Positions 38,871 through 40,111 of a stretch of DNA of 47,425 nucleotides are shown piece by piece. This stretch comes from a virus. The notes under the pieces are model-generated. The model searched no databases. It had not been told where the DNA came from and saw only the letters and a program-made list of their open reading frames with translations. Made by a program: the position numbers and the translations under genes. The stretch is taken from positions 1-47,425 of IMG/VR virus record IMGVR_UViG_3300037961_001215. One strand, given 5' to 3'. Position 1 is the stretch's first letter; every line of letters starts with the position of its first letter.

Positions 38871-39090
38871 TTTCTAATACCGAGATAAGGCGGTCTAAGT
38901 AGAACCGCGCTTTCTGCAAGTCTTCAAGAGGCTTGCTCTTGTAACGATAGCGCCACAAGTATTTAAGAATATTACCTTGTAAATAATACTCATAACCTTC
39001 ATTAGTAGCGGCAGCAATGGCATCTAAGCACTCGATGCCGCTACGATTATAATGAGGAGGGTTGTTTACTAAATCACCCTTTTTAGCCAT
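38842..39090 (-). CDS. DUF3310 protein
   Basis: From ATG 39090 the product has 82 residues. It holds the DUF3310 signature NNPPHYNRSGIECLDAI followed by GNILKYLWRYRYK and LEDLQKARFYLDRLI. DUF3310 proteins are common in phage replication regions and are sometimes labelled nucleotide kinase-like, without firm biochemical proof. An upstream in-frame TTG at 39099 is less likely. The start overlaps the methyltransferase stop by 8 nt. Confidence 0.88.
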   Translation of the reverse strand: MAKKGDLVNNPPHYNRSGIECLDAIAAATNEGYEYYLQGNILKYLWRYRYKSKPLEDLQKARFYLDRLISVLENGTTSKSKS

Positions 39091-40111
39091 AATGTGCAAC
39101 CTTTATTGCTGTTCCAATTTGTTGTGCAATTTGCGGGACTATGGCGTTGCCTAATCCTTTAATTCTGTCCACCCTTTTGGGTATCCCATTAGCCACTCTA
39201 CCCACGTCGGGTTCAATGTTCCAGTTCCACTGTTCCGTACCTCTGGATGATTCCCCAACATTTTTTGCATCTTGTCGCCCGGCAGACCCGCTTTGTGTTC
39301 GCTGGCTGAAGGTGTCGGCCACATTTGCACTGCTTTCGACAGCCCTGCCCCCTTTCCCGTTTTCGGGTTTACTCCACTCCGTTCTGTCGCTGTCGGTGTC
39401 GGCCACATCTTGACTGTTGCGCACAGATACTTCCTGTCGTACATGTGTGTGTGACTCTTGCTCCCCACTGGGCCGCAGTCCTTGTACTCTGATGCTCTTG
39501 GTGTCGGCCACATCTTCACTTGGTCTGCTAAGTTTGCTCCAAATTTCAAGTTGGGATTGGTTTTGCTCACTCTGTATCCCTTCTCGTCCAACTGTCTCGG
39601 CCCCCCTGTCACATCCGTTGTCCTCGGTGTGGCCCACAATCCAGACTCTGTCTCTTCTGTGCGGTGCACCGACGCTGCAAGCTGGAATAACAAACGGCCT
39701 TGTGGTGTAGCCTTCGGCTTCCAAGTTAGAGAGCACTGTGTCGAGCCCCAAACTGATGTGGCCATTAACGTTTTCGAAAACAACCCAAGAGGGTCTTTTG
39801 TGTGCAACGATTGTGCGGATGTACGGCCAGATGTGGCGGTCGTCCTCCTCTCCCTTGCGCTTCCCTGCGGAAGAAAAGGGTTGACATGGATATCCTGCGG
39901 TGAGTATGTCGCAGTCTGGAATAAATCTATCTGGGTCATTTGCTAGTTCCTTTACATCTGATTTTATTGGTACATTAGGCCAGTGCTGTTTAAGTATATC
40001 CCTGCACCACGGTTCTATATCACAGAACAGATGTGGTGTAGATAGACCAGCCCACTCAAAACCGAGGGCAAAGCCCCCTATGCCACTGCATAAATCTACA
40101 TGTTTTAGCAT
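39083..40111 (-). CDS. dcm: DNA (cytosine-5) methyltransferase
   Basis: This 342-residue enzyme transfers a methyl group from SAM to cytosine C5. Motif I is DLCSGIGGFALGFEWAG (6-22), motif IV GYPCQPFSSAGKRKG with catalytic Cys76, motif VI FENV (112-115) and motif VIII RRDRVWIVG (152-160). Motif X is GLGNAIVPQIAQQIG near the end. The target-recognition region is hydrophilic and contains DVADT or NVADT three times. Most of the gene is shared with a second frame (39151-39939). It probably protects phage DNA from host restriction. No cognate endonuclease was seen nearby. Confidence 0.94.
   Translation of the reverse strand: MLKHVDLCSGIGGFALGFEWAGLSTPHLFCDIEPWCRDILKQHWPNVPIKSDVKELANDPDRFIPDCDILTAGYPCQPFSSAGKRKGEEDDRHIWPYIRTIVAHKRPSWVVFENVNGHISLGLDTVLSNLEAEGYTTRPFVIPACSVGAPHRRDRVWIVGHTEDNGCDRGAETVGREGIQSEQNQSQLEIWSKLSRPSEDVADTKSIRVQGLRPSGEQESHTHVRQEVSVRNSQDVADTDSDRTEWSKPENGKGGRAVESSANVADTFSQRTQSGSAGRQDAKNVGESSRGTEQWNWNIEPDVGRVANGIPKRVDRIKGLGNAIVPQIAQQIGTAIKVAHYG
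39151..39939 (-). CDS. overprinted protein with WPTPxA repeats, inside the methyltransferase gene
   Basis: This 262-residue frame lies wholly within the methyltransferase, same strand, shifted +1. It has its own ATG (39939) with AAGGAA 7 nt upstream (39947-39952). Features are KTLMATSVWGSTQCSLTWKP (residues about 57-76), LLFQLAASVHRTEETESGLW, and MWPTPRASE, MWPTPTATE and MWPTPSASE. The C-terminus reads GTLNPTWVEWLMGYPKGWTE. This is a coherent protein that I believe occurs in other phage genomes next to or within dcm-like genes. Its function is unknown; a methyltransferase accessory is possible. It ends 68 nt before the dcm end. Confidence 0.75.
   Translation of the reverse strand: MTQIDLFQTATYSPQDIHVNPFLPQGSARERRTTATSGRTSAQSLHTKDPLGLFSKTLMATSVWGSTQCSLTWKPKATPQGRLLFQLAASVHRTEETESGLWATPRTTDVTGGPRQLDEKGYRVSKTNPNLKFGANLADQVKMWPTPRASEYKDCGPVGSKSHTHMYDRKYLCATVKMWPTPTATERSGVNPKTGKGAGLSKAVQMWPTPSASEHKAGLPGDKMQKMLGNHPEVRNSGTGTLNPTWVEWLMGYPKGWTELKD
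39311..39513 (-). repeat. three copies of a 14-nt repeat in the dual-coding region
   Basis: On the + strand GGTGTCGGCCACAT occurs at 39311-39324, 39395-39408 and 39500-39513. Read on the - strand it encodes VADT with the preceding Asp or Asn in the methyltransferase and MWPTP in the overprinted frame. A diverged relative lies near 39635. Confidence 0.85.

Follow-up and report, generated by a model that had tools for sequence, protein, structure and literature searches.

An overlapping reading frame in a phage cytosine-C5 DNA methyltransferase gene and its proposed role as a modular specificity subunit

Layout and distribution of the two genes

We analyzed a stretch of viral DNA of 47,425 nucleotides (the window), which comprises positions 1 to 47,425 of record IMGVR_UViG_3300037961_001215. 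On its minus strand, it carries an open reading frame (ORF) for a cytosine-C5 DNA methyltransferase, here termed alpha, which is overlapped by a 262-codon ORF, here termed OP. Sequence comparisons make it very probable that the two frames specify the two subunits of one enzyme. A sequence-only reading of the window had described two long same-strand frames with a +1 shift, an ATG start codon for OP with AAGGAA located 7 nucleotides upstream, three MWPTPxA(S/T)E motifs, and the ending NPTWVEWLMGYPKGW; all of this is present in the sequence, with the 262 amino acids of OP encoded at 39151 to 39939. OP lies in the +1 frame relative to alpha (offset 172 = 1 mod 3). Promoter and terminator signals were sought around the pair, and none of note was found. 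The features of the locus are as follows:

39083..40111, minus strand: alpha, cytosine-C5 DNA methyltransferase ORF of 342 amino acids, with motifs I to VIII and X and without a recognizable motif IX
39151..39939, minus strand: OP (beta), ORF of 262 amino acids in the +1 frame, proposed specificity subunit with target-recognition region and motif IX
39947..39952, minus strand: Shine-Dalgarno-like AAGGAA, 7 nucleotides ahead of the OP start codon
39643..39939, minus strand: N-terminal part of OP, amino acids 1 to 99, over alpha motifs IV to VIII; proposed docking part; both frames under purifying selection
39635..39667, minus strand: alpha motif VIII region, APHRRDRVWIV, amino acids 149 to 159, assigned from sequence; the HMMER alignment to M.HhaI ends just past it
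39185..39601, minus strand: alpha amino acids 171 to 309, VADT-rich linker, predicted to be disordered (predicted local distance difference test [pLDDT] below 50 throughout), passenger reading of the OP array, with nearly neutral amino acids
39514..39639, minus strand: OP module 1, type 0, LWATPRTTD..., 42 amino acids
39409..39513, minus strand: OP module 2, type 5, MWPTPRASE..., 35 amino acids, 14-nucleotide repeat at its start
39325..39408, minus strand: OP module 3, type 10, MWPTPTATE..., 28 amino acids, 14-nucleotide repeat at its start; not in the nearest relatives L007 and L011
39217..39324, minus strand: OP module 4, type 2, MWPTPSASE..., 36 amino acids, 14-nucleotide repeat at its start
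39166..39216, minus strand: OP motif IX, LNPTWVEWLMGYPKGWT, amino acids 242 to 258, assigned by an hhalign chain from classical C5-methyltransferases through in-frame actinophage enzymes to OP
39134..39157, minus strand: alpha motif X, GLGNAIVP, amino acids 319 to 326, starting inside the last OP codons

Alpha matched PF00145 with an E value of 1.1e-42. Its catalytic core, in which motifs I to VIII with the invariant GYPCQ and ENV columns were found, showed a fold match to M.HhaI over 168 columns. When a classical profile was aligned to alpha, motifs I to VIII and motif X were recovered, with GLGNAIVP aligning to the classical GNAV, and motif IX fell opposite gaps or unconserved residues. The AlphaFold2 model was confident for amino acids 1 to 170 and for a helix at 313 to 341, and of low confidence for amino acids 171 to 309 (pLDDT below 50). 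Alpha therefore looks like a catalytic domain with a long disordered linker between it and motif X. Judged from the model, this linker looks like a wrong-frame reading of the OP array.

The sequence-only reading considered a chance origin of the OP frame unlikely, and resampling agrees. With the alpha protein kept and its codons redrawn at the frequencies seen in 14 other window genes, 12.3 stops were expected in the OP frame; none was observed, and none of 200,000 resamplings was open. Shuffling alpha's own synonymous codons gave 10.2 expected stops and no open frame in 50,000 trials. The reciprocal test was applied to alpha under the C-terminal half of OP: given the OP protein, 17.0 stops were expected in the window and none was seen, while an own-codon shuffle yielded 4.3 expected stops and a probability of an open frame of 0.001. 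Over 87 nonredundant loci, 3 such stops were seen versus 1,276 expected, a rough figure in that the codon usage of the window was applied to all of them. The codons that encode VADT (GTG GCC GAC ACC) are rare in the phage, accounting for 12, 9, 36, and 11% of their families, respectively.

As the same reading had suggested, similar proteins occur at methyltransferase genes of other phages. A tblastn search with OP returned 228 phage records and 8 plasmids, including phages of Paenibacillus, Klebsiella, Escherichia, Rhodobacter, Mycobacterium, Salmonella, and Xanthomonas, and viral contigs contributed 80 loci by the OP query and 78 by the alpha query. OP was exactly +1 of alpha in all 179 fetched loci that had both ORFs. 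Using alpha alone as the query, which does not select for OP, OP was present at every locus except two truncated contigs. The protein-profile search suggested by the sequence-only reading was run and matched OP to PHROG 1008, annotated "DNA methyltransferase," with an E value of 2.3e-37. PHROG 1008 matches occurred in only 4 of 299 sampled Bacillota genomes, and the gene therefore appears to be mostly a phage or plasmid trait. A scan of genome contigs for OP-like loci found three. Three OP-like copies occur in one bacterial genome, that of Thermoactinomyces daqus (L166, L168, and contigs C33, C4, and C11 of G001).

Existing annotations of OP are scattered. It is the "g50 internal gene" in phage Redbud and a second DNA methyltransferase in PhiXhv-18; in other genomes, the annotation covers just one of the two frames. 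In Escherichia phage K1ind1, ORF28, a "Mte8-like protein" (L169:1195-1887), is an OP homologue in the +1 frame over a C-specific methylase. The annotated "DNA methyltransferase" of Cronobacter phage JC01 (YP_009998599.1; L172:1228-2202) is the OP frame (ORF 1227-2199), and the catalytic alpha frame of that phage (ORF 1091-2156) is without annotation.

Frame-specific selection and the start of OP

A comparison of codon-position rates in both frames across relatives had also been suggested, and it placed selection over the 3' half of the overlap on OP. We used nine close relatives with alpha about 65% or more identical to that of the window. Differences at alpha codon positions 1, 2, and 3 were.192,.100, and.457 in the 5' alpha-only part;.170,.072, and.167 in the core overlap, where OP lies over motifs IV to VIII;.298,.059, and.021 over the C-terminal half of OP; and.120,.096, and.358 in the 3' alpha-only part. 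For position 3, the bootstrap intervals obtained in the overlaps were separate from those in the alpha-only parts. Because alpha position 1 is OP position 3, the wobble position over the C-terminal half is that of OP. Per opportunity, changes in this half that are silent in alpha and alter OP occurred at a rate of 0.0096, compared with 0.228 for those silent in OP and altering alpha, a 24-fold difference. Silent changes in the alpha-only flanks served as the neutral yardstick (0.288). Both frames were constrained in the core overlap, with rates of 0.114 for changes silent in alpha and altering OP, 0.096 for the reverse, and 0.040 for changes altering both. Identity among the close relatives over the C-terminal half was 95% for OP and 69% for alpha, which elsewhere reached about 83%. 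The contrast in this half was weaker in more distant relatives (the "mid" set), as expected since the modules differ there.

OP is a real dual-coded gene and not a product of chance. Over the 3' half, alpha is a passenger among close relatives, held open yet otherwise nearly free. The view of OP as overprinted inside the methyltransferase is inverted over this half: OP is the selected frame there, and the methyltransferase frame is the passenger. In a similar manner, the 14-nucleotide repeats, thought to serve both proteins, are indeed read in both frames, as VADT in alpha and as MWPTP in OP, but do not serve the two proteins equally: the VADT codons are rare ones, and substitutions identify the WPTP reading as the constrained one.

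The OP start was compared across 60 nonredundant loci with the same start region. Its start codon was ATG in 49 and GTG in 11, and a Shine-Dalgarno core preceded it in 59 of the 60 loci. The alpha lysine codon that forms this core was AAG, likewise in 59 of 60, in a phage that prefers AAA 2:1. Since the start and ribosome site are kept, the first 100 or so codons of OP are constrained, and alpha motif X is constrained as well, the sequence data favor two separately started products rather than a frameshift.

Motif IX and the modules of OP

Besides OP, PHROG 1008 covers residues 196 to 388 of ShiLan gp70 (2e-61), a single-chain methyltransferase of an actinophage. ShiLan gp70, Leonard gp5, and PFR2 gp47 share with the window the order of motifs I to VIII, LPTPxA modules, motif IX (RLxxxFxEWMMGxPxGxVT), and motif X (GNGxxPxQ); they differ in holding all of these in one polypeptide and one frame. 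When a profile built from 14 classical bacterial C5-methyltransferases was aligned to the single-chain actinophage enzymes (probability, 99.7; E value, 9.5e-26), the classical motif IX, RKLTPLECFRLQGFPDEF, fell on the actinophage RLAPAFSEWMMGWPAGWV, and GNAV fell on GNGV. The match of an OP profile to the single-chain enzymes spanned motif IX and the (L/W)PTPxA region (probability, 98.2; E value, 3.8e-14). In those enzymes, this region and motif IX lie in frame between motifs VIII and X, the position of the target-recognition domain. OP is thus most likely, on these alignments, the specificity subunit of the same enzyme and the source of its motif IX and, judged by position, also of its target-recognition domain. 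The suggestion that OP modulates or targets the methyltransferase was right in direction, and the present evidence is more specific. Its alternative, that OP is a toxin or an anti-restriction factor, found no support: searches of Pfam, NCBIfam, PADLOC, and PDB sequences gave no match to OP, nor did Pfam searches with C-terminal fragments, and the family that matches is a methyltransferase one.

Intermediate arrangements were present in Backyardigan, Dylan, and Juno112, in which the first gene stops after motif VIII and a +1 gene holds (L/W)PTPxA, motif IX, and motif X in one frame. The actinophages L181, L182, L184, L185, L186, and L170 form a layout series, ranging from a single chain to two overlapping genes that keep motifs IX and X together; the window has the nested form. 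A conserved PTSGxxRNG precedes the PTP modules in split forms (L184 gp6, L186 gp42, and L170) and is missing from single-chain ShiLan gp70; separate subunits may need it as a docking element.

The C-terminal half of OP is built of one to six units across phages, mostly of 28 to 46 amino acids, each of which starts with (M/L)W(P/A)TPxA or a related sequence. With types defined at 70% identity or more, 78 phages contained 215 modules of 79 types in 67 distinct ordered combinations. A given type can take the first place in one phage and the fourth in a different one, with alpha identities between such phages as low as 33 to 46%. The order is (0,5,10,2) in the window, (0,5,2) in L007 and L011, (0,10,3) in L031, and (12,0,10,3) in L107. 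Module 3 (type 10, 39325-39408) is extra with respect to L007 and L011, recurs in more distant phages, and is in frame for both genes, a candidate for a recent module insertion. Modules 2, 3, and 4 open with the 14-nucleotide repeat ATGTGGCCGACACC, which occurs in three exact copies on the minus strand (starting at plus-strand positions 39311, 39395, and 39500). These repeats could act as recombination joints.

Tandem exchangeable modules sit between motifs VIII and IX, and DNA recognition by each of them is putative. Multispecific enzymes of Bacillus phages carry recognition domains in tandem, which by analogy makes a separate specificity for each module the natural hypothesis. We somewhat favor the view that the specificity subunit is a multimodule cassette in the +1 frame, whose modules are traded, probably by recombination at the WPTP/VADT boundary, so that methylation targets are changed or added while the passenger frame is kept open to motif X. 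Such a specificity system would be combinatorial, would evolve under the constraint of two frames, and would be widespread and mostly unannotated.

Proposed two-subunit enzyme, alternatives, and precedents

The reading that we consider very probable is a two-subunit cytosine-C5 DNA methyltransferase encoded by one DNA stretch in two frames. Translated in frame 0, alpha would provide the catalytic large domain with motifs I to VIII, the long disordered passenger linker, and motif X. OP, translated in the +1 frame from its own Shine-Dalgarno sequence and ATG inside alpha, would provide the small domain. Its N-terminal part probably docks on alpha and would be followed by a row of exchangeable recognition modules that each start with (M/L)W(P/A)TPxA, and then by motif IX. 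Together, alpha and OP would form a single active enzyme. It would methylate the DNA of the phage at sites picked by the OP modules, which would most likely let the phage escape host restriction.

Several points weigh against this reading. The model of isolated OP was poor (pLDDT 56), its fold search gave no match, and it was not used as evidence. When the motif IX-X region of the actinophage enzymes alone was searched as a profile against PDB, no methyltransferase and one chance-level match were returned; for this reason, motif IX was called by full-length profile alignment, together with its position and a published HHpred result for Corndog gp6, the last 53 residues of which fall on three C-terminal helices of M.HaeIII (PMC4351075). 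The link between one module and one specificity is by analogy, and the predicted target-recognition domain of the two-subunit enzyme M.EcoHK31I has been placed in its large subunit (PMC3404938).

The last point is also what speaks for an unlikely, though the most serious, alternative, in which OP is the motif IX subunit, recognition resides in alpha, and the WPTP modules do other work, for instance in binding to alpha or to a host protein. The LPTPxA modules of single-chain relatives, however, lie exactly at the place of the target-recognition domain, after motif VIII and before motif IX, and the matching stretch of alpha is predicted to be disordered and is nearly neutral among close relatives, unlike a recognition domain. 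Alternatively, ribosomes might start on alpha and then shift by +1 to the OP frame, producing motifs I to VIII, the target-recognition domain, and motif IX in one chain. Single-chain versions are known in actinophages, and the authors of the Cluster O mycobacteriophage study could not decide between two products and a frameshift (PMC4351075). We regard a fused product as highly improbable at this locus. It would skip the N-terminal 100 or so codons of OP, yet these are constrained in the OP frame (0.114 versus 0.288 for neutral change), with stops in OP that are silent in alpha being reduced further, to 0.032. Moreover, the Shine-Dalgarno sequence and start codon of OP are conserved, and a fused chain would not reach the conserved motif X past the OP stop, although alpha stays open to it.

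An equally improbable alternative is an independent effector (a methyltransferase modulator, an anti-restriction factor, or a toxin) that merely overlaps the gene, as the sequence-only reading had suggested and as the lack of a solved-structure or Pfam match would allow. OP is, however, homologous to the C-terminal half of single-chain methyltransferases, motif IX is absent from alpha, and OP always occurs alongside alpha. A toxin, anti-restriction, or defense protein was rejected, as no profile supported it. Finally, WPTPxA and EWLMG can arise mechanically from VADTx and RVANG with particular codons, and the OP frame with its cross-phage similarity might be a by-product of codon use in alpha, through passive read-through of its codon bias. 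The probability of this is negligible: synonymous resampling, positional rates, and class rates exclude it, and the codons required are rare in the phage.

The closest precedent for the proposed two-subunit enzyme is M.EcoHK31I of Escherichia coli. Lee, Kam and Shaw are said to have found in 1995 that its small subunit is encoded inside the large-subunit gene in another frame and that both are needed for activity. M.EcoHK31I is a heterodimeric C5-methyltransferase recognizing YGGCCR, with motifs I to VIII and X in the large subunit and only motif IX in the small polypeptide (PMC3404938). By this published description, alpha with motifs I to VIII and X and OP as the sole holder of motif IX resemble it, and the nesting of OP in another frame of the alpha gene would match that of the M.EcoHK31I small subunit. 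The two differ in the target-recognition domain, which is in the large subunit there, whereas selection and single-chain relatives put it in the small subunit here, as a multimodule array. M.AquI, too, is naturally split into two subunits, and its motif IX lies in the small one (PMC3404938); that subunit additionally holds motif X and half of the variable region, whereas alpha of the window keeps motif X.

The split genes of mycobacteriophages (Corndog and Dylan gp6-gp7 and Backyardigan gp73-gp74) likewise combine a catalytic half and a (L/W)PTPxA/motif IX half in a +1 overlap. There, however, the first gene extends no further than motif VIII, and the second gene holds motifs IX and X, whereas OP of the window is fully nested and alpha continues to motif X. 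For Cluster O mycobacteriophages, the choice between two products and a frameshift was left open, and similar layouts were noted in phages of other hosts (PMC4351075). According to PMC8936443 (citing Wilke 1988), the enzymes of Bacillus phages SPR, SPbeta, phi3T, rho11, and H2 have tandem target-recognition domains and several specificities. These are likened to OP by description only; they are single-chain enzymes with known targets, whereas the modules here open with WPTPxA and lie in a separate subunit in an overlapping frame. A literature search for overprinted methyltransferase genes of phages turned up nothing relevant beyond the Cluster O paper and the papers on split enzymes. The recognition region in the small subunit, the modular shuffling, the evidence for the passenger status of the annotated frame over half of the overlap, and the wide occurrence among phages add to what was found in these papers.

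Nested same-strand genes of this length are rarely backed by evolutionary evidence from many independent loci, and 87 nonredundant loci were informative here. The overlap also splits cleanly into one stretch with both frames constrained and one with the annotated frame as passenger. These findings bear on whether the split methylases of mycobacteriophages are made as two products or by a frameshift (PMC4351075). Annotation is likely to be only half complete for many phage "DNA methyltransferase" genes, and a recoded alpha clone would lose the second subunit and probably yield a dead enzyme.
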